Below, piece after piece: positions 32,500 to 50,457 of a DNA stretch of 62,389 nucleotides. The DNA comes from an uncultured Bacteroides sp. (lineage in GTDB: Bacteria > Bacteroidota > Bacteroidia > Bacteroidales > Bacteroidaceae). Every line of letters starts with the position of its first letter. Position 1 is the first letter of the stretch. The notes under the pieces were generated by a model that searched no databases, was not told the DNA's origin, and saw only the letters and a program-made list of their open reading frames with translations. The translations under genes were made by a program, and so were the position numbers. The stretch is from the NCBI GenBank assembly GCA_947173895.1, contig CAMWGU010000011.1:1-62389 (forward strand), written 5' to 3'.

Positions 32500-35400
32500 T
32501 TATTGTTGTCCCGATCTATCTTGTTTGTGCTTTGGAGATGTATCTGAAATATGCATAGGTTGGATTTCTACAATGTTTCCATCTTCAAATGAATAGGCAC
32601 CAGATAAGTCATAGTTTTTCCCTAAATTTTGATAATTATTTTTCATCCTCAATGACTTCTCGCCGAATGAATAGTATACAAGGGTATATCCAAAATCAGC
32701 AAGGTATTTTACTATATAGTCTTTTCGTATAGCTAAGCCTCTTAATTTTTCAATCCGAATGTTTACAGACACTATTTCATTGTTAGAAATAGCTCTTACT
32801 ACACCTCTCTCTGCTGTGTATAATTTCAGATACTCCATAATATGATGATTTGGTGCACAAACTTCACGAAGCAATGTCTTGGATTCGTCTAAGCCGAAAA
32901 CGTTTTCTTGCAATTGGGCTTCATATGACAATTGCAAAGTAAAACCAGGTCCTTCGTGTCTATGTTTCTTTTCCCATTCATCTCGTTGCCGAATATAGGT
33001 TTCAGCCCAAGGATATTCGTTCCACAAATAATCCGTACTTCCGTTTCTACATTCTGGCATCCATCTCCCATGGAAATTCTGTTCTTTAGCCCATCCCTTG
33101 TAGGCACTCAATTCCTCTTTCTTAATGAAACCTGCATTAGAATAAAGAAAAAGATCTTTAATTGTGCCATCTATAACTTCCGTTTCATGCCCATCATAGC
33201 ACATAAGTATCACCCACTCTCCATCAGTCTCGTCTTTCAACAATAACCGTGGAGCAGGCAATGGAAATACATTATCCATCCACGTTTTATTATCAATATC
33301 ATCCACTTCCTCTAATGAATCGACATTGAAATGTATCAAATCGTCTTCTTTCTCATTTGTAATTGTTGGGTCTATTGTGGAATATTCACGAGTAAACCAT
33401 GGGTAAGGTTGTGCTGCCATATCTTTTTGTTTTGGAATATTTGAACTAAAATACCTGTCTTTAGACACAGAACAATAGTCACATAGTAATGCATCTGTCT
33501 TATGCAAAGCCATCCAAAGATATTTTTTACCAAAACGTTCCATTTTATTGTCATATCTTGATTGGTTATATATATCCTTGTCCAAATCTCCAAGTTCATC
33601 ATCCCAACCATATTCGTTCATAATGATATTTGCCATTATATTTCTAATGTCTTGCAAAGGAATTGATAGATACTCATTACCTTCCCTCTTATAGAATACG
33701 GGGCTGTCGCTATAAGAATTAGAGCCAAGTATATATCTGTTAAAATCTGAAAAACCGCATAATGTGTAATACAATCTTTCAGAACCATCAGACGAACCAA
33801 AAAAAGTTTTATCGTCATCCAATCGTGATGATATTGAGGAATAAGGATTCTCTGTCATGAAGGGGATTTTTATTTTTCCCAAAAAAGTATTGTCCCCATT
33901 TAAGTAATCCGCATATTGTAAAATCAACATTGTCCATTGTCTGACTAATATATTGGACGGAGCTTGTCCTTCTGTATAAAATACAGCAAGCAGCATACTT
34001 GCAATATCAGCACATTCCATGGTATCTCTCTTTCTCAACAAATGGCCGTAAATAGCGCACACTATTATTTCTACAACATACAAGTCATTACACTGTGCAA
34101 ATAGTTCTATGGCATCCCGTGCGGATTGTGGATATCTGTCGAACAATGCGACCAAATGCCTTAACAACCTTCCTCTGACAAAGGGATGGGTAGATGTGCA
34201 CATCCACCCCAACAATATTAAATATTTGTGAGTGTCTTTTTCTGTTATATCTATCTCAATAAAGCCATCTACTTTATAATACGAAAAATAGTTGAATATA
34301 CCGTTTACTGCCGTCGTCCATTTTTTGTCTCTTATGGATATTTTTTCGTTCATCAGTTTCTTATGTGCCATAAAGAATACTTCTTTTGGCAATATGGTTA
34401 GTAAATTACGCAATATACCTAATGAGAAAACCTGTTGTTCTACCATCCACCTGAATACTAAATCATTGTTGCTTGTACGATAATGCAGGCTATCGAACAA
34501 GATGTTCAACAGATTCTGATGTGCAAGCAAATCCCTATTCAACAATTCTGGCATAAGCGACCATTCCGAAAGTAAGGCGGCAAGGAAACGCCTGTACAGA
34601 AAATGTTGCTTACATTCCGACTTCTCTATCACAAAATCCACTTTTGCATCATTCTTCATTTTGCATTTACAAAAAGCGTCAGCCATTAGAAAGTCACCTA
34701 TCTTTTGGAACCCAAACATTAGTCTTTCACCATCCATTCCAGTTTCCAGCAAAAGATTCTCTTTAATAGTCCAATATAGTAGACTACTACTCCATGTCCT
34801 GTTTCGGCATAATTGGTCTGCATAAAATCTAGCCTTTTCTCTTGGTACATCCTGACATGAATTATAGAACAGTGAATACATTGCCAGTTTGTCCAACAAC
34901 TTTCCTGTCACATTTCGGTGAGGATCTTCGTCAACTCCATCTGAAACCGTAATATTCCTATAACCTATATACTTTCGATAAAGTTCTATATAAGAAAAAT
35001 CACGTTCCATAAAACTAAAGTCCTGATTCACAACCTGACAGAAAATATTTAGAAACAGTGGATTTGTGAATTCCCTCAGAAAACGGTTACGAATAGAACC
35101 ATCTTCATCCTTTATCTTGTAATGGACAAAGTATTTCCCAGTCGCTTCATGTACGCGTGAACCAAATCCCTCCATAGACGCTTGTTCCCAATTCCCAAAA
35201 ATACTAGAAGATTCAAAGTCTCCATTTCTGTATGTAACGATTACACGCAGATTCTTTAATTCATTTACCTTTGACTCCACGTTTCTTAACGCTGTATTCC
35301 AAAAAACATCTGTTGCACCCTCGTTGATGGCATCAATGAGGATGAGGGCGTTTGAATGTTGTTCTTCCATAGCATCATCCAAATCTTCCAACGATTTGCT

Positions 35401-36558
35401 CTCCATTCCTGACATTCTTATCAATTGCGATTCAAAGTCTTCATGTGGGTTGAACTTGCTGCCAAACAATAGATACACATTCATTTGTTGGGATAAACGT
35501 CGAGCTGTTGCACACATATAGTGAGTCTTGCCCATACCTGCCTCTGCATTAATCACCAGTAATTTGCTCTGACAATAGTGCATTAGCTCAATGTCTGCTC
35601 CGAATTTAGGAAATTCTTCTTGAAAGAAGTTTGTTGGGTAGCCTTTATTAGATTTATCTTTATCATAATTGGCATATATGTTCTCTAGCAAATAATAAAA
35701 TTCCACATAATTTCCACGTGTATATTTAGGTATGCGACTACATATATAATCTGTTGACAAAGCAAGGCTTTCCAACTTTGCCAATCGCTCATAGAGTGCA
35801 TTTTGTACTTCCTTTACTGCAAACAAATCGATTTTATCATCCAACTCTTTGTTTGCAATATGCAAATCTTCATTATATCTCAGAGCTGCATATCCAATAG
35901 CCTTTTTCACCTGTCTTTGACTTGTCCCCCTTCCTAATGGGGAGAAATCCTCACTCTGCCAATCCTCTGACACAGCCACTCCATGTTGCCTTAACTGTTT
36001 TTTGAGACTTAGAATGGAACAATAGCCAAGACAACCTGACAACTGTTTCAACGTGATACCAATCACAGACCCCATCTCGTTCAATACAGGTGACCCCGAG
36101 AATCCCTTGTACGAATTTAAGGCGAGTGAGTCGGTTCTGACAACAGCTGTATCATAGTCTTTTCTTGTCGTGCCAATCCTGTCACATACGTCAATGGAAA
36201 TCAAGTCCTCTCCACGTCCCAATTCTTGAGGATAACCTACGATACTCAAAGTTCTGTCTTCATTAAATATAGTGGCCAAGAGAGCCAGATACTGGCGATG
36301 CACATTGCCGCTTATCCTTAACAATACGACATCTATTGGATCTTCATTCACTCCGAGTTCTTCCACTTGACAGCTTATAATAGATGTTTCTATTATGATT
36401 CGCACATCGTCGCCACTTACTTCATGATCGACTACAATATGGCGGGCTGTTAACAAGGTGTTCTCCGACACAAAGAACGCTGTACCTCTATTATTTCCAC
36501 ATTGTACTGAAACTATCGCCGAATACAGTGTCTTTCTTTGTTCAACAGGAAACTTCAT
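32500..36558 (-). CDS. Trypsin-like protease-STAND NTPase fusion (Avs1-like antiviral sensor)
   Basis: This 1352-residue protein has three visible parts. Residues 1-190 form a trypsin-like serine protease with an apparently intact triad: His40 in LLTARHIVV, Asp76 in DPIDVVLL and Ser154 in GFSGSP. Residues about 325-560 form a P-loop NTPase of STAND type, with Walker A EAGMGKT (Lys344), Walker B ALILIDAINEG (Asp409) and a sensor-like VIVTYRNGD near 440. The remainder is a long, mostly helical C-terminal sensor region ending in a beta-rich tail, with no family I can name. The overlapping upstream MBL gene completes the composition known from AVAST type 1, whose STAND proteins detect phage proteins. 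The gene looks AT-rich compared with the R-M genes before it. The specific Avs1 assignment is inference. Confidence 0.75.
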   Translation of the reverse strand: MKFPVEQRKTLYSAIVSVQCGNNRGTAFFVSENTLLTARHIVVDHEVSGDDVRIIIETSIISCQVEELGVNEDPIDVVLLRISGNVHRQYLALLATIFNEDRTLSIVGYPQELGRGEDLISIDVCDRIGTTRKDYDTAVVRTDSLALNSYKGFSGSPVLNEMGSVIGITLKQLSGCLGYCSILSLKKQLRQHGVAVSEDWQSEDFSPLGRGTSQRQVKKAIGYAALRYNEDLHIANKELDDKIDLFAVKEVQNALYERLAKLESLALSTDYICSRIPKYTRGNYVEFYYLLENIYANYDKDKSNKGYPTNFFQEEFPKFGADIELMHYCQSKLLVINAEAGMGKTHYMCATARRLSQQMNVYLLFGSKFNPHEDFESQLIRMSGMESKSLEDLDDAMEEQHSNALILIDAINEGATDVFWNTALRNVESKVNELKNLRVIVTYRNGDFESSSIFGNWEQASMEGFGSRVHEATGKYFVHYKIKDEDGSIRNRFLREFTNPLFLNIFCQVVNQDFSFMERDFSYIELYRKYIGYRNITVSDGVDEDPHRNVTGKLLDKLAMYSLFYNSCQDVPREKARFYADQLCRNRTWSSSLLYWTIKENLLLETGMDGERLMFGFQKIGDFLMADAFCKCKMKNDAKVDFVIEKSECKQHFLYRRFLAALLSEWSLMPELLNRDLLAHQNLLNILFDSLHYRTSNNDLVFRWMVEQQVFSLGILRNLLTILPKEVFFMAHKKLMNEKISIRDKKWTTAVNGIFNYFSYYKVDGFIEIDITEKDTHKYLILLGWMCTSTHPFVRGRLLRHLVALFDRYPQSARDAIELFAQCNDLYVVEIIVCAIYGHLLRKRDTMECADIASMLLAVFYTEGQAPSNILVRQWTMLILQYADYLNGDNTFLGKIKIPFMTENPYSSISSRLDDDKTFFGSSDGSERLYYTLCGFSDFNRYILGSNSYSDSPVFYKREGNEYLSIPLQDIRNIMANIIMNEYGWDDELGDLDKDIYNQSRYDNKMERFGKKYLWMALHKTDALLCDYCSVSKDRYFSSNIPKQKDMAAQPYPWFTREYSTIDPTITNEKEDDLIHFNVDSLEEVDDIDNKTWMDNVFPLPAPRLLLKDETDGEWVILMCYDGHETEVIDGTIKDLFLYSNAGFIKKEELSAYKGWAKEQNFHGRWMPECRNGSTDYLWNEYPWAETYIRQRDEWEKKHRHEGPGFTLQLSYEAQLQENVFGLDESKTLLREVCAPNHHIMEYLKLYTAERGVVRAISNNEIVSVNIRIEKLRGLAIRKDYIVKYLADFGYTLVYYSFGEKSLRMKNNYQNLGKNYDLSGAYSFEDGNIVEIQPMHISDTSPKHKQDRSGQQ

Positions 36559-37717
36559 AGCTATTTTCGCTTTTTTTAATTTTGAAATTCAGCATGTCTT
36601 TCTCTTCATCGGAAAGTTCGACCAGCTTCTTCAGCAATTTATTCGGCTTGTTGTATCTTATCTCTCGGTATTGTACGTCATCTGGCAAATCGGTTGTTAT
36701 TATTCGACCCAAAGTCTGCAGACTCGGTGCTTTTCCCGAGCCACCAGTAAAGAAGTACATTTCACTGTCCGCCACCTTTATTAATTCTTTTGATGTGCTG
36801 TGCGCACTGCCGTGATGTGACACCTTTATCAAATCAAAGAGAATAGGCTTTTCTTCATTCGGATAGTTTTTTCTTATAGCTGTTGCAACTTGGGAAGGGT
36901 CAGCATCGCCCATGAAGAGAACTTTATGATTTTGATATTCCCACACGAATGCGATTGAAGCTACATTGTTTTCACTCATCTTCAAGAGAGGCTCTTCAGC
37001 ATATCTCTTCAATGTCGTCCTATTTATCTCCTTACTGCTGATGTACTCCTCCGTCTCCTCCATCTCGTTAAGTTCGGCAATCCGCATCAACGCCTCATAG
37101 ATGGTCTCCTCTTTCTTAAAATCCTCAATCTTCTGCTTGTACAGATTTTGCCAGAACAACTTACGGTATTTCACATCCAACTTATCCAATGCATCATTTG
37201 AAGGCGATAAAAATACAATTTTGCCCATGTTATGGTCAAGTATGATTGGGGAAGACTCGTCCGTGATATATTCTCGTTGCCAGACTTTCGCCCATGATTC
37301 ATTCTCCAGAATACACTCCGCAAGGGTCACAGCTTTCTTTTCATTGATGTTCTGGTTTATCATGTCGACAACAACAGGCAGCTCACAATAAATGTTTTTC
37401 ACATTCTCTTTCATCTGTTCGCTCCAATCACAAAAATTGCCCGTTATCCTCTGATAACAGTTGTAGAGAATGTGCTTTATCGAAATCTCTTTGTTCTGAC
37501 GAAGCATTGTCACAAGGCCATCTATATGGTCGTTGTCAATATGCGTAGCTATTAAATAGTCAATCTTACCTCCCAATTCATTCTCTATAAAATCACCTAT
37601 TTCAGGTTTATACTGCCCACAATCAACCATTATGCTAATTGTGTGGTCTTCATCTTTAATAACAAAGAAAATGCAATCGCCCGCTCCGCAAGAAAAAGTT
37701 TTGAATGTATATTTCAT
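36542..37717 (-). CDS. ComEC/Rec2-like metallo-beta-lactamase-fold protein
   Basis: The start at 37717 (MKYTFKTFSCGAGDC) is preferred; an ATG at 37726 adds three residues. The approximately 390-residue protein has the MBL metal motif in the ComEC-like form THIDNDH (about residues 58-64), a later Asp in LFMGDADPS and His in VSHHGSAHS, so the di-metal site looks intact. There is no signal or membrane segment, so it acts in the cytoplasm. Its stop lies 17 bases inside the protease-STAND gene, implying translational coupling. In AVAST type 1 an MBL protein accompanies the protease and STAND components, which fits. Its substrate is unknown. Confidence 0.82.
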   Translation of the reverse strand: MKYTFKTFSCGAGDCIFFVIKDEDHTISIMVDCGQYKPEIGDFIENELGGKIDYLIATHIDNDHIDGLVTMLRQNKEISIKHILYNCYQRITGNFCDWSEQMKENVKNIYCELPVVVDMINQNINEKKAVTLAECILENESWAKVWQREYITDESSPIILDHNMGKIVFLSPSNDALDKLDVKYRKLFWQNLYKQKIEDFKKEETIYEALMRIAELNEMEETEEYISSKEINRTTLKRYAEEPLLKMSENNVASIAFVWEYQNHKVLFMGDADPSQVATAIRKNYPNEEKPILFDLIKVSHHGSAHSTSKELIKVADSEMYFFTGGSGKAPSLQTLGRIITTDLPDDVQYREIRYNKPNKLLKKLVELSDEEKDMLNFKIKKSENSYEVSC

Positions 37718-37764
37718 AGGTGTCACTACATTTGCTGTAAAATTATTCTCTTGAAAATAAATGT

Positions 37765-40700
37765 CTATTCAGCATTTACAATATTCATCAGCTCATCGAA
37801 ACTATCCACCTTGCCATACTTGATTTGTGAGGATGATAGTTGGTCGAAGAGTTTTTCGGCACAAGCTATTTTGCCTTTCTCTATTCCACGTAAATCGAGG
37901 GACGACATACTGCCTTTGGTTTCCGCTACGAAATAGACGTGCTTCACACTACCTTCCTGAAAGGCTATTGCCCAGTCTGGAGAGTAGTTGCCTACGGGTG
38001 TGGGTATATGGAAGCCTTTGGGCAGTTTAGCATACACTACCACTTCCTTGGCTGTGTCAAGACGCTGTACGAACTTGCGCTCCACACTCTCTGCGGCATT
38101 ACCGTCGGTGAAGACATAATCGACAATGCTCTTCTTGCCTTCGTAAGCCTTGTCCATGGAGGTGTGCTTCTCCTGGGTGAAGATGTCGCTGGAGTATTCG
38201 CCATCTACTTGGTTGTAGCTGATATGATCGACAATGATGGTGGCTTTCTGCTCCATGATTAGCCTTGACACTTTGCGGATGAACTCCTCGGGATTCATCT
38301 TGTAGAGATCGAACTTCATGGGGCGGATTTTCGAAAGGATGGTTGCCACCGTCCTGCGGGTCAGCTTGGTGTTGGCACCTATCTTGCCCAACAGATCATA
38401 CTTCACTGTGCTTACCACATCGGTGTGCATCATGTTGTGGTCTGCCGTGTCCTCGTGGAGCATGTGCCCGTGTTCTATGTCCTCGTGGGTGAGTCGGTCT
38501 TTCTGCTCACCGCGCGTTACCACATAGCTCAGTCGTGCTACGTTCAGTTCATTATTAATAGCCGCAACAGCTTTGCTGATAAGCTCCTCGCTGTCGAAAT
38601 CAACCGTGTAGGCATATTTGTGGTTGATGCGGTGCCACAGTTCCTGAAACTCCTTTTTGGCGAAGTTGTCGTTGAGCTTGTTCTCCGGAGTCTGCGGTTT
38701 ACTGCCGTCGTCTATCATGTCATCAAGAGCCTTCGGGTCGAAGATGCTCTGCACACGCTTATACACCTGTTCGGTATAGGGTTGCAGGTCATCGTCCAAC
38801 GGCTTCAACGTGCCGTCTTGCAGGTCGGTATGGAACAGTTCCGTCACCTCTCCGCTCTTGGTGATATAGCCGTTCATGCGCAACTGGAAATAGATGTCCT
38901 GTGCCTCGGCGGTAGTCACGGTGTGCTTCGTGCCGTCGGGTAGGATGAATATCTTGCCTGTAAAGAACTCCATATCGGCACGCAACGGACGGTCGTATAG
39001 GTCGGCACGGATGTCTTTCTGCAGGTCGCTGACGAATGAGGCATAGCCCTCACTCGCTATCACCGTCAGACGGTTTACCTTGTGTACCTCGTCGGGCAGT
39101 ACGTCGCCATCCTGTCTGATGCCACGGCTGTCCACACAGAGGCGCAAGCCGCGTCCCACTTCCTGCCTCTTCTGGCTGATGCTGTTCGACTGGCGAAGCG
39201 AACAAATCTGGAACACATTGGGGTTGTCCCATCCCTCGCGCAGTGCCGAGTGGGAGAAGATGAAGCGCACAGGCTCGTCAAGACTCAGCAGACGTTCCTT
39301 GTTCTTTAGGATAAGGTCGTAGGCAGAGATGTCATCGGCTGTGTCAGAGCCTCGTTTGGTCTCGCTGTTCACTGCACGGCCTTTCTTGTCGATGGAGAAG
39401 TAGCCCGTGTGGGTGTCCTTTACGGCGATGCTGCCCAAATAAGCCATGTAGTCGGGATTGAACATATTTTGCTGTTCATTCAGCTCCGCCATATACTCCT
39501 GCTCGAATATCTCGCCATAGCGTCCCAACAGTTGCTGCCCGTCCTCGTCGTATTGGCGGTAGTTCGCCACCTCGTCAATGAAGAAGAGCGACAGGCATTT
39601 GATGCTACGCTTGAACAGGGCAGCCTCCTTGCGGAAATGTGCCTTGATGGTCTCGCGTATCTGTATGCGTGCCTTGTGGTCGGCAGTCACGTTGCCCACC
39701 ACATCTTTTATATATAAGGTAGTGCCATTGCCGAAGGTGATGCTGCTGCGTGAGGGTTGCAGGGTATCTACATGTATATCCGTCACCACATATCCCTTGT
39801 ACTGCTCCATCTGCCCCGATAGGAAATAGAGGTCGTCACCTTCCGAGATGTTCTTGTAGTCACGCTTGATGTTGCCCGACTTATTCTGTATCTCCATCTC
39901 CATGCGAGCCTGCGGTGACTTGTCCTTGGAGAGGATGATGTCGGAGAGGTAGAGGTAGCCGTCCGTACCCTTCAGGTTCCTCAGTTCAAAGCCCACCACC
40001 TCTATTTTCTTCACCAACTTCTGGTTGTAGGCATCCAGTGCGTCAAGCACATACACGGGGTTGTGCGTCTCCTTGTGCGTGGCGGAGTAGTTGAGCGTGA
40101 AGAGCGGGTTGAAGCGTGCCAATGCCGTCTGCGTGGCTGCGCCTCCCATCTTCTGCGGTTCGTCGAGAATGATGATGGGGCGGTTGGCTGCAATCACGTC
40201 GATAGGTCGGCGCGAGCGGAACGAGTCGCGCTTGTCGTAGATGATGCGTGCCGCCTTGTTGTTGGCACCCTCTTTCAACGAGGTGTTGAAAGCTTGGGTG
40301 TTGATGATCATCACACTGATGTCGGCACTCTGTGAGAAAGTGTCGATGTCACCGAGACTGTCGGAGTTATAAATGAAGTAGCGTGCCTTCTTTCCATAGA
40401 TTTCCATGAAATGATCTGTGGTTATATCAAAGCTCTTCTTCACGCCCTCACGGATAGCAACGCTGGGCACCACCACGATGAACTTTGTCCAGCTGTAGCG
40501 TTTGTTCAGTTCAAAGAGGGTCTTGATATAGACGTAAGTCTTTCCAGTACCAGTTTCCATCTCCACATCGAGCTGGCAGTGACCGAGTTTCTTCACCACG
40601 TCGTTAGAGAGGTGGATGTTGCTTTCGGTCTGTATCTGATGGATGTTCTTCAGCAACGTATCTTCATCGAGCACCACTTCACCGTTTTTATAACCTGTAT

Positions 40701-40884
40701 CCTCTTCGTCGTACTCAAACTCCTTCACTTCCACACGTTTGCCACCTTGCTCCACATACACCTTGCCATGGTCTATCTTGTATTCCAGCAGACCGAGGTT
40801 GGGCTGTCCGTCGAACACGCGCACTACGTTCTCCACGGCATCCGTCTGATATTGTTGTATTTTGAATTTCAGTTTCATAATCAT
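37765..40884 (-). CDS. res: Type III restriction enzyme Res subunit (helicase-nuclease)
   Basis: The 1039 residues begin with a superfamily 2 helicase: METGTGKTY at about residues 109-117, LDEPQKMG around 240-247, SATHKE, and late motifs including QKRQEVGRGLRL. A C-terminal PD-(D/E)xK nuclease shows Asp in SPDWAIAF (about 970) and AETKG (Glu988, Lys990). Together with Mod it should cut DNA with two unmodified, inversely oriented sites after ATP-driven communication. It follows RhuM by 6 bases and precedes the MBL gene by about 47. Composition is richer in G+C than the MBL/STAND pair. Confidence 0.92.
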   Translation of the reverse strand: MIMKLKFKIQQYQTDAVENVVRVFDGQPNLGLLEYKIDHGKVYVEQGGKRVEVKEFEYDEEDTGYKNGEVVLDEDTLLKNIHQIQTESNIHLSNDVVKKLGHCQLDVEMETGTGKTYVYIKTLFELNKRYSWTKFIVVVPSVAIREGVKKSFDITTDHFMEIYGKKARYFIYNSDSLGDIDTFSQSADISVMIINTQAFNTSLKEGANNKAARIIYDKRDSFRSRRPIDVIAANRPIIILDEPQKMGGAATQTALARFNPLFTLNYSATHKETHNPVYVLDALDAYNQKLVKKIEVVGFELRNLKGTDGYLYLSDIILSKDKSPQARMEMEIQNKSGNIKRDYKNISEGDDLYFLSGQMEQYKGYVVTDIHVDTLQPSRSSITFGNGTTLYIKDVVGNVTADHKARIQIRETIKAHFRKEAALFKRSIKCLSLFFIDEVANYRQYDEDGQQLLGRYGEIFEQEYMAELNEQQNMFNPDYMAYLGSIAVKDTHTGYFSIDKKGRAVNSETKRGSDTADDISAYDLILKNKERLLSLDEPVRFIFSHSALREGWDNPNVFQICSLRQSNSISQKRQEVGRGLRLCVDSRGIRQDGDVLPDEVHKVNRLTVIASEGYASFVSDLQKDIRADLYDRPLRADMEFFTGKIFILPDGTKHTVTTAEAQDIYFQLRMNGYITKSGEVTELFHTDLQDGTLKPLDDDLQPYTEQVYKRVQSIFDPKALDDMIDDGSKPQTPENKLNDNFAKKEFQELWHRINHKYAYTVDFDSEELISKAVAAINNELNVARLSYVVTRGEQKDRLTHEDIEHGHMLHEDTADHNMMHTDVVSTVKYDLLGKIGANTKLTRRTVATILSKIRPMKFDLYKMNPEEFIRKVSRLIMEQKATIIVDHISYNQVDGEYSSDIFTQEKHTSMDKAYEGKKSIVDYVFTDGNAAESVERKFVQRLDTAKEVVVYAKLPKGFHIPTPVGNYSPDWAIAFQEGSVKHVYFVAETKGSMSSLDLRGIEKGKIACAEKLFDQLSSSQIKYGKVDSFDELMNIVNAE

Positions 40885-40890
40885 AATGAT

Positions 40891-41922: not shown

Positions 41923-41928
41923 GGTCTT

Positions 41929-43818
41929 CTACAAGATTTTAGTTACAGTATCGGGAGAATAGGTCTTGAAGAGTTGCTCGAAGTTTGTGGCGGTGCTGTC
42001 GTTGGCCATGGAGGTGTCGCGAAGCACGGCATAGAGGGGATGCATCTTGGCGATAGTGGTTACCACCTCATCAGTCACGTCCTTGTCGAAACAAGCCACG
42101 AGATAACCGTCTGCCACATTGTAGATGGTCTTGCCTGCCACTACCTCTGTCGCAATCTTGCTGTCGAGCATGGCACCCAACTCCAGCATCACCTGGAAGA
42201 GCAGGTCTTCTGCCGTGCGGTCGGACTTCACGTTATTCACCAATAAGAATATGTCGGCTTGACTGATATCCTTAGGAGTGTAGTAGATGCCCTCCATATT
42301 GGTGCTATCCAACTTCAAGACACGGAAACCAGTGTCGAGGTCTTGCGTTGTCAATGGACTGTCTTCCTTTATCTTCTTGCCGGCACGACGGATGCGTTCT
42401 TTGCCTATCTCGCAAATGGTTTTATAACCAGCCTTATATGCTTCGCTTTTCTCATCTGTCAGTTCGGGTAGCTGCACCATGATAAACTTGCGATTGCCTC
42501 CGTCTTCAGCATTAAGTTGCATCACGGCATGGGCGGTGGTGGCGGAGCCAGAAAAGAAATCCAATACTACAAAATCATTATCTGGTGAGTTGTTAATTTG
42601 TAATGCCAAAAGTTTTTGAATCAAAGAGACTGGTTTAGTAAAATCAAATATACTTTTTCCATCAAATAACCTACGAACTTCTTTAGTGCCATCTTGATTA
42701 AAGGGACCTGACATTAATGAAAGAGGCTTTCCTCTTCTTATTTTACCTCGTTCGTCTTTAAGATAGGCTTTGGAACGTACTGAATATGTTCCATCTTTTT
42801 GTAGGTTAAATTCAACTTCATTGTTGTCAATAGCAGTTTGTAGCCTATCTTGAGACCACACCCATTGTTTCCTTGGCAAGATTACCACTCCGTTATGTTC
42901 GATAGGATACATCAAATTAGGTCTATCACCTAAACTATTAGTCATCAATGGTTGGGTCATGTATCCTCCCCTTATAGAATACTTTTCATCTCTTTTCGAA
43001 TATACAGATTGACTTTCCTCATCTAATTCTGAAGTGATATCTAAAATTTTCTTTTTGGAATAGCAAAGAATATATTCATGTACACTTATAAAACCTACAG
43101 TATAAGCACCTGCACCATATTTGTTTTTCCAAACGATGGTTTCTATTCTATTTTCTTCTCCGAATATCTCATCACATACTCTTTTAAGGTTTTCCAGCTC
43201 GTTGTCATCAATCGAAATAAATATCACTCCATCATCCGTCAGCAAGTCTCTTGCCACTTTCAGACGCGGATAAATCATATTGAGCCAGTCGGTATGGAAA
43301 CGCCCATTGCTCTCGGTATTTGTAACGAGACGGTTGCCCTGCTCGTCAAACTGCCCGGAGTTGGCGAGGTATTCGGCAGAAGACTCAGCAAAGTCATCCT
43401 CATAGACAAAGTCGTTGCCCGTGTTATAAGGCGGGTCGATATAAATCATCTTCACCTTGTGGAGATAGGTCTCTTTCAGGCATTTCAGCACGTCGAGGTT
43501 GTCGCCCTCGATGTAGAGGTTCTGCGTGTTGTCGAAATCCACGCTCTCCTCACGGCAGGGACGCAATGCGGCATTGACAGGCGAGTTGGCGAGCAGGATA
43601 GCCTTCTTCTTATCAGGCCAAGTAAACTGATAGCGTTCCTCACGTCCGCTGATAATGACATCCGAGAGGTTCTGCTGCAACTTCTCGAAATCCACCTTGC
43701 GCACCAGTTCCCCTGTGCGCTCGTCAATCGTCTCTGTCACACAGTCAGGAAAGAGCGACTGAATCTTTCCAATATTCTCTTGCACCCCATTGGTGCTCTG
43801 CATTCTGAGTTTATCCAT
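41929..43818 (-). CDS. mod: Type III DNA methyltransferase Mod subunit
   Basis: The 629 residues are a beta-class N6-adenine methyltransferase: DPPYNTG (motif IV) at residues 128-134 comes first, and the AdoMet motif LDFFSGSA (419-426) after the target-recognition region. It modifies one strand of an asymmetric site and gives specificity to Res. The middle segment (about residues 225-415, 42576-43146) is markedly AT-rich compared with the flanks, suggesting that the recognition domain was swapped by recombination. The start overlaps nothing, but the DUF4238 gene ends 2 bases before it. No simple-sequence phase-variation tract is visible. Confidence 0.93.
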   Translation of the reverse strand: MDKLRMQSTNGVQENIGKIQSLFPDCVTETIDERTGELVRKVDFEKLQQNLSDVIISGREERYQFTWPDKKKAILLANSPVNAALRPCREESVDFDNTQNLYIEGDNLDVLKCLKETYLHKVKMIYIDPPYNTGNDFVYEDDFAESSAEYLANSGQFDEQGNRLVTNTESNGRFHTDWLNMIYPRLKVARDLLTDDGVIFISIDDNELENLKRVCDEIFGEENRIETIVWKNKYGAGAYTVGFISVHEYILCYSKKKILDITSELDEESQSVYSKRDEKYSIRGGYMTQPLMTNSLGDRPNLMYPIEHNGVVILPRKQWVWSQDRLQTAIDNNEVEFNLQKDGTYSVRSKAYLKDERGKIRRGKPLSLMSGPFNQDGTKEVRRLFDGKSIFDFTKPVSLIQKLLALQINNSPDNDFVVLDFFSGSATTAHAVMQLNAEDGGNRKFIMVQLPELTDEKSEAYKAGYKTICEIGKERIRRAGKKIKEDSPLTTQDLDTGFRVLKLDSTNMEGIYYTPKDISQADIFLLVNNVKSDRTAEDLLFQVMLELGAMLDSKIATEVVAGKTIYNVADGYLVACFDKDVTDEVVTTIAKMHPLYAVLRDTSMANDSTATNFEQLFKTYSPDTVTKIL

Positions 43819-43820
43819 TG

Positions 43821-44768
43821 TTATATAATTCTTATTTCTTTAATATTCATATCAATAGGAGCATTATATGAAAAAACATATTTTTTTGCATAAAGCAACC
43901 TTCGAGAATTCAAATGCTCAAGAAAATCTTTGGTCACTTCTCCAAAATAACCATCTAATCTATCAAATTTTGAGAAATATCGTTTATCCCAAATGACTAA
44001 CATTAGATTTGGAGTTAATGGAAATGATGTTTCTACGCCATATCGTGTTAATCCTAAGCATTCATTTCTCTCACAAATATTATCAGCATGTCCAAAAGCG
44101 ACTATTGGACTATCTGAAGTATAAAATGAATTTGTTGAAGAATAAAAGAAACTCCAATAATTATTACACAATTGATTGGAGAATGTGTTAACCAATTCTT
44201 CATTAAGATATGTTGACTTTGCATGATTTACCACCTGATCTACCGAAGCTACAATGTCTAACTTTGCAATATCAGGATTATTTAGTTCTTTCGAGAGACC
44301 ATAAGTAAATAGCCGAATCATTTTCGGCATAACAGAGTCAAACATTTCATTGTTTTGTTTCCTAACTTCTGGTAACCTCATATATTGAATTGCTATATGT
44401 TTAGCAATTTCCTTTCTTTCATGTTCTGCTAATAAGAAGTTCTTTATTTTTTTCTCCAAACAAAATTGTATGCGATTATTTATTCCACTTAATATGGAAG
44501 AAAATGACAATTCTACATTTTTGGCAAAGTAATCTAATTCTATTGACAATTTATTGATGTCACTTTGGCTATTCCTTTTTAAATATTCATCACTAATAGA
44601 ATAGAAATAGTTTTCACCGCATACCTTTTCTACACTTGTCTTTACTTGTTTCTTTGATTTGAGAATATAAGTGTGCAAATACCATGAGTTATTACCTTCA
44701 TGGGCAAATTGCCTCAAATAACATTGAGGAACATAATGATGATATTTGTGAGCTTCACCTTTTGCCAT
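43821..44768 (-). CDS. DUF4238 domain protein
   Basis: The 315 residues start with the family's signature HHYVPQCYLRQFA (residues 10-22) and continue with SVEKVCGENYFYS. Such proteins are scattered in accessory regions, and their activity is unknown. The gene looks AT-rich, unlike its neighbours, begins 14 bases inside the DUF4391 gene and ends 2 bases before mod. It therefore looks like a recently inserted passenger that preserved the operon's tight spacing. An additional anti-phage function is possible but unproven. Confidence 0.78.
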   Translation of the reverse strand: MAKGEAHKYHHYVPQCYLRQFAHEGNNSWYLHTYILKSKKQVKTSVEKVCGENYFYSISDEYLKRNSQSDINKLSIELDYFAKNVELSFSSILSGINNRIQFCLEKKIKNFLLAEHERKEIAKHIAIQYMRLPEVRKQNNEMFDSVMPKMIRLFTYGLSKELNNPDIAKLDIVASVDQVVNHAKSTYLNEELVNTFSNQLCNNYWSFFYSSTNSFYTSDSPIVAFGHADNICERNECLGLTRYGVETSFPLTPNLMLVIWDKRYFSKFDRLDGYFGEVTKDFLEHLNSRRLLYAKKYVFSYNAPIDMNIKEIRII

Positions 44769-45414
44769 ATTGCTTGTTCTTTAATTCTGTAAGTTGTTTG
44801 TGTAGCAAGAACTTCTTTTGAGGTTGTGGTTCTACTGCGATTTTCTTTTCCAAAGCTACTATTTCTTTCTGCAAGGCTTCTTGTTTGGAAGTCTGCTCGA
44901 TTGCCTCTTTAAGTTTTGGGGCATCAGAGGTAATGAGCGTTTCGGCTATTTGTCGAACCAACGATTCATACAGACCATCCATCGTGTGATGATGTAAGTT
45001 GACGGTCATATCTTGTGGTGACATCCACGGAGAGCGATAAGTGCGAATGACTTTGTATTGCAGTTCGGAATTGCCACTTACCGCCTGCTTGTAGTTGATG
45101 AGCATGCAGACCTCTTCCTCATATTTTAGGATAAAGAGCAGGTGACGAGGCATCATCTTGTCGATGAAAACAAAGATGTCATCAGGACATTCCTTGTCTT
45201 TCAGCGGCACGACAAAAACGACTATCTCGTGAACATCAAGCCCATCAGCAATGTTCAGCGTAGAGGGTGCCAGTTTGGCAAACCATTCTATGCTGACCAC
45301 ATCACGAGTGAAGTGTTCTTTCATCCGTGCATTAGCCCCCAGCTTGTCTATGAAAGTCCGCTTGGGAACTATCCTGTTGACCCTCGTTGAGGGTGGGAAG
45401 AGGTGTTGTATCAT
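44755..45414 (-). CDS. DUF4391 domain protein of the type III R-M cluster
   Basis: I take the ATG at 45414 (MIQHLFPPSTRVNRIVPK), two bases after the AlbA_2 stop; an alternative at 45444 would overlap that gene by 28 bases. The 219-residue product matches DUF4391 (YRSPWMSPQDMTVNL near the middle, LYESLVRQIAE) and ends in a charged helical tail. DUF4391 genes accompany helicase and type III R-M genes in many bacteria, but no activity has been assigned to my knowledge. Confidence 0.8.
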   Translation of the reverse strand: MIQHLFPPSTRVNRIVPKRTFIDKLGANARMKEHFTRDVVSIEWFAKLAPSTLNIADGLDVHEIVVFVVPLKDKECPDDIFVFIDKMMPRHLLFILKYEEEVCMLINYKQAVSGNSELQYKVIRTYRSPWMSPQDMTVNLHHHTMDGLYESLVRQIAETLITSDAPKLKEAIEQTSKQEALQKEIVALEKKIAVEPQPQKKFLLHKQLTELKNKQYGKR

Positions 45415-45416
45415 AT

Positions 45417-46895
45417 TTACTCTAATGGTTTTAAGATTACCCAACGCCCATTCTTACGACCACCTTCACGGGCAATAATGCCCTTTGCTTGGAGGTCTGC
45501 GAGATCACGTTTGACAGTTCTTTGTATGCTACTTTCCTTTTGGGACATCTTTTGGGACATCTTTTGGGACATCTTTTGGGACATCTTTTGGGACGTTATT
45601 GTGCAATCCTCTTCTATCATAGACAATATATCTGCCTGTCTATCAGAGATTTCTATTGTGCAGTCTTTTATGCAATCTTTTGTATCATCTTTTGGGACAT
45701 CTTTAGTGCCATTCGCATTATAATCCGGCCTTTTGAATGTCACAGTCACGAAATAACCGTCCGTTGTCCATGTGGGAGTCTCGACATTACGGTAGGCACA
45801 AGCATCGGTGATGCGTTTCACGCCTGAGCCCCATTTCTCAATGTATGAAGTACTGTAAAGCACATTGGCAATGAGTTTGTTGTGTGGATTGGAACTGTGC
45901 GGCTGGGTGATGTTCTCGGCAGTGAGGGGAGGCACGAGATAGCCTGTATTGGTAATCTCGATGCGGTCGTCGTAGATAGCCAAATAGATAGGCAGACAAT
46001 AGCGGCCCCACTCGCGGTGACATAGGCTATTCAAGATACTTTCGCGCAACGCCTCGGCAGGCACTTCCAACCATTCGTCACGTATCAGACCTACTACCTT
46101 GCCGTGCATACTGAGGTGCTTGCGAAAGAAGTTCATCGCCTCGTTGAGCAGCACGAAGATATTACCTTCTGCCTGTTGGGAGTCGATAAACTCATTCTTG
46201 TCTGTACCACGGAAACGTGCCAGACTTATGGAGAGTTGCAGGTACATACCTGTTTCTTTAGTGAACAGTGCCGTTGCAGCATTCAGCAGTTTATTGCCGT
46301 CGAGCAATTTCCATTTGTCCAAAATGTCCTTGATAGGTTCGGTCATGGCGCTCTCCGGCATACGTCCACGCTCCACGCCGAGACGTACCACACCACGAAT
46401 CAGATTCTCGTCGAGTGAGTCAATACTCTTGAAATCAGAAGGCTGACGCTCCCAAGCGAAGAAGTCGGGCTTGCTTTGGCGCAGGCGCAGGTCGAACATA
46501 TCACAAGGCATTTCCTTGGTAGTGCTTTCCACCCGATAATAAGGGCAGCCATGGTAGGTGTAGGGTATGTTTCCCCATAACCAAGCGTCAAAGTGCATGG
46601 CTATCACTTTCTGGTTTGGACGGTCAGGAATGTCAATATATTCTACACGTACATCTACCTGTGGCTCCAAATAACTCAGAGCCTGTGCTATCTCACGCTG
46701 GGTGTTGTCCGTCACCTCCTGACCAAGTATCTTCAAGGATGAGGGTGTTACTCCAAAGATGAGCCATCCGCCTTCGGTGTTCAGAAAGGCACAAGCCGAA
46801 TGCATGCCGTCTTTCAACTCGCCCGTTGTCTTCTTCAGTTCCAACTGGCGGTGCTCGTCATTTTGAATCAATATCTGTAATTCCTCGTATGTCAT
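45417..46895 (-). CDS. AlbA_2/Schlafen-type ATP-binding protein with winged helix and KMSQ repeat linker
   Basis: The 492 residues carry an N-terminal AlbA_2 (Schlafen-related) domain (HRQLELKKTTGEL, residues 16-28; FLNTEGGWLIFGV). A HATPase-like region follows (RESILNSLCHREWGR and IYDDRIEITNTGYL, about 285-325), then a linker containing four tandem KMSQ units (about 438-454), and a C-terminal winged helix (IQRTVKRDLADLQAKGIIARE). The linker is encoded by a 12-bp tandem array, so its length could vary without frameshift. It lies between the helicase (6-base gap) and DUF4391. It is a putative DNA-binding ATPase of the defence cluster; the exact role is unknown. Confidence 0.82.
   Translation of the reverse strand: MTYEELQILIQNDEHRQLELKKTTGELKDGMHSACAFLNTEGGWLIFGVTPSSLKILGQEVTDNTQREIAQALSYLEPQVDVRVEYIDIPDRPNQKVIAMHFDAWLWGNIPYTYHGCPYYRVESTTKEMPCDMFDLRLRQSKPDFFAWERQPSDFKSIDSLDENLIRGVVRLGVERGRMPESAMTEPIKDILDKWKLLDGNKLLNAATALFTKETGMYLQLSISLARFRGTDKNEFIDSQQAEGNIFVLLNEAMNFFRKHLSMHGKVVGLIRDEWLEVPAEALRESILNSLCHREWGRYCLPIYLAIYDDRIEITNTGYLVPPLTAENITQPHSSNPHNKLIANVLYSTSYIEKWGSGVKRITDACAYRNVETPTWTTDGYFVTVTFKRPDYNANGTKDVPKDDTKDCIKDCTIEISDRQADILSMIEEDCTITSQKMSQKMSQKMSQKMSQKESSIQRTVKRDLADLQAKGIIAREGGRKNGRWVILKPLE
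45539..45595. repeat. 12-bp coding minisatellite
   Basis: Four full plus one partial copy of TTTGGGACATCT occur in direct tandem, on the minus strand encoding repeated SQKM/KMSQ. A lone related unit appears near 45682-45695. Because 12 is a multiple of three, copy-number change would only alter linker length. Confidence 0.9.
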
Positions 46896-46901
46896 ATTTC
46901 G

Positions 46902-49900
46902 CTACTTTATTATCAAAAAGGTTATCAACTCGAAATCATCCAGACCTTTAATCTCTCCACTTAGGGCTGTTGTCTCGCCTTCGGAGAAAAGACTTTCTAT
47001 GTCTGATTCCTGTTTTATGGTTACGATGCTGTCAATTGCAGCATGTAGAAGACGGCTATAATGCTTCATATCACCTCCGTCCTTTGTCTCACGGTTCACC
47101 GCAGTACAAAGAGCATGGTCATACTCTTTCTTATCACGACATACGGTACGCATGATGTCGAGCAACTGCTTGGGATGCAAGTGGTCACAAATCACCTCTC
47201 TGTCATTAGAAAGATAAACCATATAGAAAGGATGAAGCAGATTCTTGTGGTCGATGTTCACGGAATTGTTTCTGTTCTTCAACACGAACATCACTCCAGG
47301 CTTGGCAAGAGACGAACTGCCTACCACGGCATTCAGGCCGAAGGGAGCGTGTTCTATATCGGGATGCTCTTTGAGATAACTCAACAGGTCAAGTCGGAAC
47401 TCATTGAGTCCCAAGTCCATGATATTGATGCCTGTGTCCATGTCCTCGATGTCCATCACCTCATTCTGTAGTTTCTTCAACTGTCCGAGCCGATATTCAA
47501 GGTCTGCCTCTTCACCGATACTCAATGGGTTGCCCGTACCGGCGGCCGTGAGGATGGTGGCTTTCATACGGCTCTCCACACGTCCTTTCAGTTGGATATA
47601 GTCATCCAGTTCCATGTCGGGCCAGTAGTTTACCAACTGTATCTGCTTGTTCTTTGAACCGATACGGTCGATACGTCCGAACCGCTGTATGATGCGGACT
47701 GGATTCCAGTGTATGTCGTAGTTGATGAGATAGTCGCAGTCCTGCAAGTTCTGTCCTTCGCTGATACAGTCGGTGGCAATGAGTATGTCTATTTCTTCCT
47801 TGGCATCAGGATAAATGGCTGCACGGTCTTTAGAAAGTGGCGAGAAATAGGTGAGGATATTGTTGAAACTCAATGGAAACTTATTGATGGTGCAACGTCC
47901 TTCGGTGGAACCCGTAATTAACGCCGTATTCAATCCGCAGTCGTTCTTGATGGTGCCAGCCAATTGTTCGTAAAGATAGTTGGCGGTGTCGGAAAAAGCG
48001 GTGAATATCAACGCCTTCTTGTTATCGCCATTGATGGGATGCTCAAACTTGTCTTTCAAGTCAGCGAGAAGCATTTGCAGTTTGCTGTCGTGCATCGGAG
48101 TAATGTCTTTGAGCATCAACAGCAGGAGTTCCAGACGTTCGAGGTCTGCCGACAAATCCCTGCGCCAACTGACATAATCCATATCGGCGAGACTAATCTT
48201 TGACTTCTTTGTGGCGAAGGGAACGGTGTCGCCATACTCGAAGTCCAACTCTGCCACCAATCCGAAAGCATCCACAGAGGCTGAACCATGCTTATCGTCG
48301 TAGTCATCAATCACGCGGATGGTCTCACGGATATACTCACTGATACGTGTCAGTGTGAGGCGGAAAGAGTTGACAGAACTTTCCAGGCGTTTCAGCAGAT
48401 TGGTGGCCATCAGTTTGCGCAATCCCTTCTCTCTGCCGTCTATGGAGAGTCCTTCTCCTTCATAATCTATCGAATAGGTACCCTTGGCACTGTCAAAGAG
48501 ATAGAGCGACGGGGTATAGATAGAGAGATTGAGCGAATTGAGCTGTTCGGCAATGTCGCTGAAATTGATGGCACTGTCCAAGTTGGTAAGACTCGGACGG
48601 CGGGACAGCGGGACAAGACGCTTGGGAAACTCGCCAATGTCCTTCGTGTCGTAGTACTTCACGATATGACTGCGGCTGCGGGCAATGGTCACTGCATCAA
48701 GCAACTGGAAGAAGTCGAAGTGCAGGCTGGAAAGGAGTTTTTCAGTTGTACGCTGTTCTGACGGAAGTTTCGCCCACTTGTTGTAGGCGGTTTGCGCATT
48801 TCGGAATACCTCGTCCACATTGCGGTCCAAGTCGAGTGCGTCATCAATGTTCTCCGTGCGTCCCTCGTATGCCAGTTGAAGCTGGTTCTTCAAGTCGTTG
48901 AAACGATTGTCGACAGGGGTGGCACTAAGCATCAGCACCTTAGTCTTGACACCCGAACGGATTACCTTGTTCATCAGACGCTGATAACGATTCTCCTTCT
49001 TGAAACCCGTCTCTTCCTCTTCGTCATCATCAATATTGCCTCCATTGCGGAAGTTATGGCTTTCGTCAATCACAATCAGGTCGTAGTTGCCCCAATTGAT
49101 ATGCTCCAAATCCAGTCCGTTGCTCGTGCCACGGTCTCTGGAAAGGTCGGAATGGAAGAGAATGTCGTAGCGCAAGCGGTCGGCGGCAATGGGATTGTTC
49201 TTGTAGTTGGCACGGAAGGTATGCCAGTTGTCGTTCAGTTTCTTCGGACACAGCACAAGTACCGACTTATTGCGGTTTTCATAATACTTTACCACCGCCA
49301 ACGCAGTAAAGGTTTTACCCAGTCCCACACTGTCGGCAAGGATGCAGCCGTTATATCGTTCCAACTTATTGATGATGGCAAGTGCGGCATCCTTCTGGAA
49401 ATTGTATAGTTTGTTCCAGATGACACTGTTCTTGAAACCAGTGCGCTCATTGGGCAGCACATCCTCGGATATGTCTTCCAAAAACTCATTGAAAATATTG
49501 TAAAGCGCGAGGAAATAGATGTATTCCGGGGCATTCTCCTGATATACGGTGTCAATGTACTCCAGCACACGGTCGGTAACGTCAGAGAATTTTTCCGTAT
49601 TCTCCCATTGCTCATTGAAGATAGAGAGGTATGCCTCCGCTGTAGGCGAGGAAAGAACGTTGACGATGTTATAGACCTCGTTGCCCCTTTCGCATCCTAT
49701 CTGTGTGGTGGTAAACTCATTGAACGGCAGATAGACATGAGACATGTCCTGCCCTTGCACATGGAGGAAGCCACCCATCTGCTCCTGAGAGAAATTGGAA
49801 CGGAACTTCACTTTTCGCCTTATCCAGTCGGCACATTCCTTGGCAATGGCTTTCTGCGAGAGCTGGTTGCGCAGACGAATCTCAAAGTCAGTGCCATAGA

Positions 49901-50159
49901 GATTGCGCTCACGGTTGAGTTTAGGAATATAGAACTCCCTCTTTTCCTTCTTTGCCTTATCCTTGATAAAGGTGGGAGAGGTAAAAATGAACCTTAGTTC
50001 ATCTATCTGTTCCAATTCTGCTTTCAGAGTTTCGTAGGCATAGATGGAAAAAGAAGCGGCAGCAATAGATATACGAGGCTGCGCTGACAACCTCTGTCTG
50101 AGGTCATCAACTACTCTCTCTGTTATATTGTTTATTAACTTCGGCAGCTCCATTGTCAA
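46902..50159 (-). CDS. SNF2-type helicase with degenerate PLD-like N-terminal domain
   Basis: The 1085 residues open with a PLD-like domain (SIAAASFSIYAYETLKAEL; LRFIFTSPTF), but the HxKxxxxD catalytic signature is not recognisable. A SNF2/superfamily 2 helicase follows: DSVGLGKT (276-283), DESH (365-368), LSATPVDN, and the late QRFGRIDRIGS. It probably translocates on DNA. With the neighbouring ATPase, methyltransferase and Res genes it resembles helicase-methylase-ATPase type defence loci. Whether it works with Mod/Res or forms a separate system with the AlbA_2 and DUF4391 proteins is unclear. Confidence 0.85.
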   Translation of the reverse strand: MTMELPKLINNITERVVDDLRQRLSAQPRISIAAASFSIYAYETLKAELEQIDELRFIFTSPTFIKDKAKKEKREFYIPKLNRERNLYGTDFEIRLRNQLSQKAIAKECADWIRRKVKFRSNFSQEQMGGFLHVQGQDMSHVYLPFNEFTTTQIGCERGNEVYNIVNVLSSPTAEAYLSIFNEQWENTEKFSDVTDRVLEYIDTVYQENAPEYIYFLALYNIFNEFLEDISEDVLPNERTGFKNSVIWNKLYNFQKDAALAIINKLERYNGCILADSVGLGKTFTALAVVKYYENRNKSVLVLCPKKLNDNWHTFRANYKNNPIAADRLRYDILFHSDLSRDRGTSNGLDLEHINWGNYDLIVIDESHNFRNGGNIDDDEEEETGFKKENRYQRLMNKVIRSGVKTKVLMLSATPVDNRFNDLKNQLQLAYEGRTENIDDALDLDRNVDEVFRNAQTAYNKWAKLPSEQRTTEKLLSSLHFDFFQLLDAVTIARSRSHIVKYYDTKDIGEFPKRLVPLSRRPSLTNLDSAINFSDIAEQLNSLNLSIYTPSLYLFDSAKGTYSIDYEGEGLSIDGREKGLRKLMATNLLKRLESSVNSFRLTLTRISEYIRETIRVIDDYDDKHGSASVDAFGLVAELDFEYGDTVPFATKKSKISLADMDYVSWRRDLSADLERLELLLLMLKDITPMHDSKLQMLLADLKDKFEHPINGDNKKALIFTAFSDTANYLYEQLAGTIKNDCGLNTALITGSTEGRCTINKFPLSFNNILTYFSPLSKDRAAIYPDAKEEIDILIATDCISEGQNLQDCDYLINYDIHWNPVRIIQRFGRIDRIGSKNKQIQLVNYWPDMELDDYIQLKGRVESRMKATILTAAGTGNPLSIGEEADLEYRLGQLKKLQNEVMDIEDMDTGINIMDLGLNEFRLDLLSYLKEHPDIEHAPFGLNAVVGSSSLAKPGVMFVLKNRNNSVNIDHKNLLHPFYMVYLSNDREVICDHLHPKQLLDIMRTVCRDKKEYDHALCTAVNRETKDGGDMKHYSRLLHAAIDSIVTIKQESDIESLFSEGETTALSGEIKGLDDFELITFLIIK

Positions 50160-50173
50160 ACCTTTTTTGTTAT

Positions 50174-50428
50174 CTATAACGTAAACTCCTTTGGCAACTT
50201 GATGTAAGTCGCATTTTCATTCCGTGAAGACCACAACAGCTCTTTTACATCCACTTCCAATACCTCCGCTATCTTCAACAGCATTTCCAGCGAAGGCTGT
50301 GCATTGTTGGTACACCACTTGGAGACAGTGGCCTGATCTTTATTCAACTGTTCTGCCAGCCATTTGCCTGTACGCTTCTTTTCTACTAGTACGATTTTTA
50401 ATCGATTGATGTCTTTGTTTGATGCCAT
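50174..50428 (-). CDS. XRE-family helix-turn-helix regulator
   Basis: The ATG at 50428 gives 84 residues; a TTG at 50437 would add three. The HTH_XRE fold is clear: KWLAEQLNKDQATVSKWCTN (about residues 22-41), followed by PSLEMLLKIAEVLEVDVKEL. It is the first gene of the defence operon, 14 bases ahead of the helicase, with the operon promoter immediately upstream. Autoregulation of the whole operon is the natural inference, as for controller proteins of R-M systems. Confidence 0.88.
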   Translation of the reverse strand: MASNKDINRLKIVLVEKKRTGKWLAEQLNKDQATVSKWCTNNAQPSLEMLLKIAEVLEVDVKELLWSSRNENATYIKLPKEFTL

Positions 50429-50457
50429 GATGCGCAAAAAAAATCTTGTTACAGAAG

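Follow-up and report, generated by a model that had tools for sequence, protein, structure and literature searches.

Positions 32500–50428 of a 62,389-nt stretch of DNA from an uncultured Bacteroides sp. (contig CAMWGU010000011.1 of GenBank assembly GCA_947173895.1; the whole stretch is called the window) carry ten genes that, judging from their arrangement, are probably transcribed together. They make up an expanded type III restriction-modification (R-M) operon, with Mod and Res containing all the expected domains, and end in an Avs-type module of a metallo-β-lactamase (MBL)-fold gene and a protease-STAND gene, both as the initial annotation had proposed. Related operons share a core of helicase, DUF4391, Mod and Res and differ in the cargo placed between and behind these genes. 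We consider it probable that the locus is one instance of a modular type III restriction operon of Bacteroidales, with a fixed core, four swappable cargo positions, restriction as the first response and an autonomous abortive module as backup. The genes and sites of the operon are:

32500–36558, minus strand: trypsin-like protease plus Avs2-like STAND sensor, 1352 aa, cargo behind res (Trypsin_2; Avs2 models of PADLOC and NCBIfam; PDB 9o4e)
36542–37726, minus strand: predicted MBL-fold gated pro-nuclease, 394 aa from a GTG start, with an ATG at 37717, cargo behind res (LmuA-MBL and Avs1a models)
37040–37042, minus strand: I229 codon, predicted second cleavage site (I/V in 14/15 aligned MBLs; aligned to an Ile of two annotated Avs1a)
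37346–37348, minus strand: I127 codon, predicted first cleavage site (I/V in 14/15 aligned MBLs; aligned to an Ile of two annotated Avs1a)
37765–40884, minus strand: Res, type III restriction helicase-nuclease, core (PADLOC REase_III, E 3.8e-286; Pfam ResIII and RE_endonuc)
40891–41922, minus strand: RhuM-family gene, cargo between mod and res (Virulence_RhuM, E 1.3e-106; PADLOC PDC-S05)
41929–43818, minus strand: Mod, type III methyltransferase, core (PADLOC MTase_III, E 1.7e-229; Pfam N6_N4_Mtase)
43821–44768, minus strand: DUF4238 gene, cargo between DUF4391 and mod, GC 29.7% (Pfam DUF4238, E 4.4e-43)
44755–45444, minus strand: DUF4391 gene, core (Pfam DUF4391, E 1.3e-38; in 33/33 ordered related operons)
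45417–46895, minus strand: SLFN_AlbA_2 plus HATPase_c_4 gene, cargo between helicase and DUF4391 (Pfam)
46902–50159, minus strand: PLD-like/SNF2 helicase without HKD motif, core (PADLOC C3a139 HKD+Snf2, E 2.7e-121)
50174–50428, minus strand: XRE/Cro-type regulator gene (Pfam HTH_3)
50458–50491, minus strand: Bacteroidales-type promoter, -33 TTTG and -7 TACTTTTG, perfect match

The initial annotation had described ten closely spaced genes on a single strand behind one promoter. All ten open reading frames (ORFs) lie on the minus strand at the places it gave, and every gene name, and thus the order, is backed by a Pfam profile search; the helicase gene matches SNF2-rel_dom and Helicase_C, the MBL gene Lactamase_B and the STAND gene Trypsin_2, and a NACHT match in the STAND gene scores below the Pfam cut-off. 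The gap pattern also agrees, with the widest gap between res and the MBL gene (38 nt from the GTG start, 47 nt from the ATG). Elsewhere the gaps are 14 nt (XRE/helicase), 6 nt (helicase/AlbA_2, Mod/RhuM and RhuM/Res) and 2 nt (DUF4238/Mod), and there are overlaps of 14 nt (DUF4391/DUF4238) and 17 nt (MBL/STAND); the AlbA_2 and DUF4391 genes overlap by 28 nt with a TTG start or leave a gap of 2 nt with an internal ATG. Ahead of the XRE gene stands a perfect TTTG-N22-TACTTTTG at 50491–50458, 29 nt before the ATG, in what we take to be the -33/-7 promoter motif of Bacteroidales. By shuffling, 0.019 such matches are expected by chance in the 322-nt stretch upstream of the XRE gene. On this strand from 32300 to 50900 there are 2 perfect matches against 0.32 expected, the second of them inside the RhuM gene. 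The res/MBL gap holds zero matches to this motif at up to one mismatch, and no minus-strand sigma-70-like or terminator-like site appears there in the site listing. GC content differs between res (51.4%) and the MBL and STAND genes (39.7% and 37.5%), which points to separate origins.

The core became visible by comparison of 52 res contexts from related genomes (37 of the family, 15 of the order). A helicase is also present in 34 of these, and in 33 of the 34 the order is helicase-DUF4391-Mod-Res, with DUF4391 in every one of the 33; the core genes of the remaining locus, L218, are ordered differently, and it was excluded from the position counts. Cargo was found in 28 of the 33 operons, amounting to 72 ORFs of at least 90 aa in 52 clusters. 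It lies between helicase and DUF4391 in 8 operons, between DUF4391 and mod in 18, between mod and res in 17, and behind res, that is, on the same strand and within 60 nt of it, in 12. One of the 33 (L105) has all four positions filled, as does the window, in which they hold AlbA_2, DUF4238, RhuM and the MBL plus STAND pair, respectively. The GC content of the DUF4238 gene, against 44–51% in mod and res, is a sign of separate acquisition. The AlbA_2 gene contains a perfect 12-nt tandem repeat of 4.8 copies (window positions 45537–45594) that encodes a repeated MSQK tetrapeptide; as the unit is in frame, changes in copy number would alter the length of the protein without breaking the gene.

Fifty cargo candidates, chosen mostly by size and some of them from outside the 33 operons, were compared with Pfam. 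A few of them follow res at a distance of more than 60 nt (L096, L109 and L121) or come from contexts without a helicase. Twenty-six of the 50 scored above cut-off for abortive-infection, toxin, nuclease or named defence families, among them Abi_C, AbiJ, AbiGi, AbiEii, TIR, Fic, SLFN_AlbA_2, YhcG, PLD, T5orf172, SIR2, OLD-TOPRIM, UvrD and GmrSD. Behind res, one operon (L115) has the Gabija genes GajA (PADLOC, E 3.2e-140) and GajB (E 2e-95), and another (L220) has Gabija by DNA identity, in near-identical copies of the L115 genes; the same position holds a Dsr2-like SIR2 gene in L216 and a pair of the GmrSD/HEC-06 kind in L132. AlbA_2 genes also occur between mod and res (L103, L109 and L131).

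The front of the operon is more variable. An XRE-like regulator precedes the helicase in only 5 of the 34 operons, so the regulator is not a constant part, and the Bacteroidales promoter motif, strict or relaxed, stands before the helicase in 11 of 34, which does not bear out a promoter common to these operons. Within the first 330 aa of the helicase, the HxKx4D motif was found in 2 of 35 family members; it is absent from the other 33, including the protein encoded in the window, for which an active HKD nuclease is thereby ruled out. A search of viral contigs with six peptide patterns found no relative of the helicase. The helicase and DUF4391 might, at a guess, support restriction by translocation or remodelling.

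Oriented loci were compared at the DNA level, and in the best 18 pairs by match length conserved core blocks flank differing contents, with breakpoints at or near gene ends. In the three examples that follow, cores that differ in cargo are 86–96% identical in DNA. L115 and L220, from different families, are 92–96% identical over 13 kb including Gabija, and RhuM is present between mod and res in L220 only. The helicases of L098 and L121 are 95% identical, and between helicase and DUF4391 an additional gene is present in L121 only. L104 and L106, with cores 86–89% identical, have a 391-aa protein and a TIR protein, respectively, before mod, and differ also by a 908-aa gene before RhuM. The identity breaks in the middle of mod in most of the 18 pairs, presumably at the target-recognition part. 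The window itself is 87% identical to L096 over res (37767–40884), in a block that ends in the stop codon; behind res, L096 differs from the window in having a metallophosphatase-type protein, 97 nt away, and an nSTAND-type protein. As sequence patterns, the cargo differences fit homologous exchange in the core genes. The identity across families between L115 (2638–16017) and L220 indicates a recent transfer.

The initial annotation had called the terminal module Avs1-like, which holds for the effector pair and not for the sensor. The STAND protein has an intact trypsin-like domain (H40, D76 and S154, assigned by position), and these residues, Walker A and the Walker B DAxNE are invariant in 7/7 aligned sequences. 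It matches Avs2 in PADLOC (E 1.1e-104), in the PDB (9o4e, E 8.6e-29) and in NCBIfam, where it reaches 318.7 bits against an equivalog cut-off of 1000, with the best stretch at 297–950; annotated plasmid Avs2 proteins match it at 24–25% identity. Avs2 proteins sense the phage large terminase. The NCBIfam Avs1b model matches residues 13–210 only (54.2 bits, cut-off 1500), and BLASTP with one Avs1b likewise hits the protease part alone. On the MBL side, the NCBIfam Avs1a model gives 180.6 bits, below its cut-off of 420. Because the sensor is Avs2-like, the pair is, by these sequence matches, best described as an Avs1/Avs2 chimera. It resembles AVAST type 1 (Avs1a-Avs1b-Avs1c) in joining an MBL gene to a protease-STAND gene, but the STAND protein has 1352 aa and not about 1930, and no Avs1c lies downstream, where about 110 nt separate the STAND stop codon from tadA; the two reference loci, L146 and L147, do have an Avs1c, of 82 and 88 aa. 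The size and score of the Avs1b match and the missing Avs1c rule out filing the pair as Avs1. It resembles AVAST type 2 in the STAND core and C-terminal sensor, but its N-terminal effector is a trypsin-like protease predicted to act through a second protein, and the Avs2 score is far under cut-off. The best PADLOC score of the MBL protein is to the LmuA model. Lamassu is expected to have an SMC-like LmuB beside the effector, and neither SMC nor LmuB is among the matches listed (Pfam for the ten genes, PADLOC for nine), which rules out Lamassu.

The MBL protein has the features of a gated nuclease. Its HxDxDH motif is invariant in 12/12 sequences, its best PDB fold is the MBL domain of ComEC (9ic4), and no solved structure matches it by sequence at E 0.01. 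In the AlphaFold model (12 sequences; mean pLDDT 77.2, pTM 0.79) pLDDT falls below 50 at residues 93–101, 111–129 and 192–231, and the second and third of these stretches contain I127 and I229, whose counterparts in an alignment with two annotated Avs1a proteins are likewise isoleucines. Across 15 MBLs the first site is I in 12, V in 2 and T in 1, and the second I in 11, V in 3 and T in 1. Threonine occurs at both sites in a single row, that of L140 (8797–9987), which suggests a partner protease of changed specificity. In the work of Tuck et al. (PMC12799240), MBL proteins of this kind are pro-nucleases shut by two disordered insertions, which the partner protease opens at one conserved isoleucine per insertion; activation by proteolysis, and activation of an Avs1 by terminase, were shown experimentally, the nuclease was compared with one from natural competence, and the tested Avs1 and Hachiman pairs defend without an R-M partner. 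The nuclease-protease pairs of Avs1, Lamassu, Hachiman and DRT described there share with the window pair the two loops, each with a conserved isoleucine, and in the window, too, the MBL gene is immediately followed by a gene that joins a protease to a defence protein. The window pair differs in having a sensor of the Avs2 kind, not Avs1b, and in sitting behind res of a type III R-M operon. Among the papers examined for this, as far as their text was available, no paper with both Avs2 and a trypsin-like protease was found.

The initial annotation had gone further and proposed that the R-M operon and the pair form a composite system whose halves cooperate. A conserved composite across Bacteroidales was not found in 301 genomes of the family, 393 of the order, the genome_contigs collection or viral contigs. 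Fourteen other MBL/trypsin-STAND pairs were recovered (8 in the family genomes, 5 in genome_contigs and 1 on a faecal contig), counted from full trypsin-STAND matches with weaker partial family matches left out. The MBL gene is directly upstream of the STAND gene in 14/14, and Res, Mod and helicase gave no BLAST match near the pair in any of these loci (stretches of 5.6 to 24 kb). Other defence-type genes (RloB, HipA and YhcG) lie beside some of them. One pair of the same kind (L138, 8797–14176), which we infer to belong to the gut commensal Phocaeicola vulgatus ATCC 8482, has no res or mod nearby. Conversely, the pair is absent from 52/52 related res contexts, 49 of which reach at least 1.5 kb behind res; of 16 other order genomes with Res, one (G603) lies outside the contexts taken. 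Of the 8 family genomes in which trypsin-STAND was matched in full, none has Res at E 1e-60, where about 1.25 would be expected by chance; there is no association, and avoidance is not significant. The composite as a system of its own is thus not upheld, and the idea that its halves were selected to cooperate is unsupported, given that the pair is distributed independently. The initial annotation had named a separate promoter and an independent distribution of the pair as evidence that would count against it; the independent distribution was found and the separate promoter was not. This distribution, together with the GC difference, suggests at the sequence level that the pair acts as a mobile unit whose place behind res is incidental. 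The composite is a single combination of cargo out of a large set.

The operon is part of a larger insertion, given with the neighbouring element:

32410–52369, no strand assigned: whole inserted segment, about 19.96 kb, without counterpart in 8/8 genus relatives checked
50766–52091, plus strand: ISL3-family insertion sequence with an interrupted transposase, a neighbour outside the system (24-nt inverted repeats; DDE_Tnp_ISL3 in two ORFs)

Homology to relatives breaks off at about 32409 and returns at about 52370. The segment is inserted between tadA and pssA, which adjoin in 8/8 genus relatives checked; in the closest, L180 and L181, 204 and 207 nt separate the homologous blocks. The segment consists of the operon and the ISL3-family element, whose inverted repeats lie at 50766–50789 and 52068–52091, between pssA and the operon promoter and about 275 nt before the latter. 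The window contains no tRNA as an insertion site, and no known RNA element was found at gathering score between 27000 and 55000.

Embedded defences are reportedly treated in a preprint by Payne et al. that other papers cite. As far as the text of the sources was available, defence genes embedded in defence operons are already described for type I R-M, BREX and Hma, and the same holds for the published accounts that follow. A 2013 paper put forward multi-pronged R-M operons that include RhuM, DOC and PrrC (PMC3710099). A type I system also hosts TgvAB (PMC11411939), Pseudomonas islands are reported to contain type I systems in which PrrC is embedded (PMC12629846), and BREX and related systems have backup nucleases including Schlafen, HEPN and OLD proteins (PMC12839542). 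A review treats PrrC and PARIS as R-M guardians and accessory genes as coupled to R-M loci (PMC12707154), and type III-like operons, some with HKD domains, have been reported (PMC2292703). The nearest layout precedent is an Escherichia coli island in which a small repressor gene, RptR, comes first, a type I R-M system follows and an independent toxin system, DarTG2, is embedded between the R-M genes, the hsdS/hsdR gap being described there as a potential recombination hotspot for defence systems (PMC12255303); it differs from the window in being type I, not III, and in having one embedded position, not four. PrrC, TgvAB, GmrSD (in Hma) and the BREX effectors are likewise independent or backup effectors inside R-M-like operons (PMC3710099, PMC11411939, PMC12839542), and in the window, similarly, defence genes that are independent lie within a different defence operon or directly adjoin it, but here the host is a type III core and the differences map to gene ends at four positions. 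In BREX-related type 2 systems an HKD nuclease sits at the N-terminus of the SNF2 helicase (PMC12839542), which the window helicase lacks. Compared with type III R-M as such, the window core adds helicase and DUF4391, and defence cargo at four positions. DUF4391 is rare in the literature searched, appearing in one paper, and no account was found of a type III operon with four cargo positions readable from related cores, in a literature available mostly as titles and abstracts and with few subscription journals.

Three other readings of the locus were weighed. If the composite were a dedicated two-layer system, the STAND protein would guard the restriction complex, or its trigger would be DNA fragments or restriction failure. 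The shared strand, the absence of a promoter or terminator match at the res/MBL junction and the recurrence of cargo inside the same operon are compatible with this, and PrrC, set off on inhibition of EcoprrI in its type I system, offers a precedent in the accessible parts of the sources (PMC3710099, PMC12707154). We nevertheless regard it as improbable: neither the other pairs nor the other res contexts show the two halves together, the GC content differs between res and the pair, and Avs1 and Hachiman pairs defend without an R-M partner (PMC12799240). It is somewhat easier to suppose that the pair simply landed behind res in a defence island, with no shared expression or selected position, as its independent distribution, the widest gap of the operon and the GC difference would allow. 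This too is unlikely in our view, given the single strand, the short gap without a promoter match at up to one mismatch, and the 12 of 33 operons with same-strand ORFs of at least 90 aa within 60 nt of res, including Gabija twice and the Dsr2-like gene. Least credible is a single extended type III machine in which helicase, AlbA_2, DUF4391, DUF4238 and RhuM are all required for restriction. The genes do overlap or nearly so, but only DUF4391 is constant (33/33, in operons picked by helicase and Res) while AlbA_2, DUF4238 and RhuM come and go, and in 16 of 52 contexts Mod and Res occur and the stretch contains no helicase, some of these stretches being cut by contig ends.

Several points weigh against the modular operon with autonomous backup. 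The res/MBL gap could hold a promoter of another type, and the figures for cargo behind res may in part reflect chance neighbourhood in defence islands. Among the 50 candidates, 24 have no clear defence assignment (DUFs, TPR, KAP, metallophosphatase, ATPases, below-cut-off matches and no-family proteins, as well as one leuS, which is not cargo, and one DUF4391, a core gene), and the 72 ORFs may include short ones that are not genes. The absence of the pair from all 52 res contexts is not absolute: three contexts extend under 1.5 kb past res, and of the 55 family Res places, 16 lie outside the count, most of them fragmentary or weakly matching. Three more distant STAND loci have no trypsin match; two (L033 and L035) have no MBL neighbour, and the third (L034, 12815–18296) has a 25%-identical MBL downstream, not upstream. 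The composite itself is present in one genome only and may be transient, the sequences give no sign of functional dependence between its halves, and terminase sensing would rest on about 25% identity to Avs2 and on earlier work on Avs2.

With these points considered, the modular operon still appears the most probable reading, and it suggests how defence would proceed. Defence genes would be gained, lost and swapped at the four positions, with exchange by way of the conserved core as the simplest route, and expressed on one transcript, probably under the XRE regulator. Mod would protect host DNA while Res and Mod, perhaps aided by the helicase, would cut unmodified phage DNA. If phage genes were expressed anyway, the STAND protein would oligomerise on binding a late protein of the phage, most likely its large terminase subunit; its trypsin-like domain would then cut the MBL protein after I127 and I229 and free a general DNase, which would destroy DNA and end the infection along with the cell. 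The sensing of terminase, the proteolysis and the DNase action in this scheme are taken from homologues. Layered defence, as raised by the initial annotation, survives as a working idea in the sense that it is likely within one operon, for which a shared transcript is probable, and not in the sense of a composite system.

The specific pairing is of modest interest, although the protease-Avs2 chimera would extend the gated-nuclease pairs to another kind of sensor, and I127 and I229 are the predicted cut sites. It is the four-position cargo architecture of the type III core that deserves follow-up. Natural matched pairs, with the same core and one cargo gene more or less (L115/L220 for RhuM, L098/L121 for the gene before DUF4391), allow a test of whether sharing an operon with a restriction enzyme improves abortive defence or merely provides travel and expression. 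More tentatively, and with some doubt on our part, the core operon may be a dedicated docking platform, in which conserved genes serve as recombination handles and whole abortive systems are exchanged as cassettes at four fixed positions under one regulated promoter. If so, Gabija, Avs-type, SIR2, TIR and Abi cassettes would be expressed only with the restriction enzyme, and their toxicity and timing would be matched to restriction failure.

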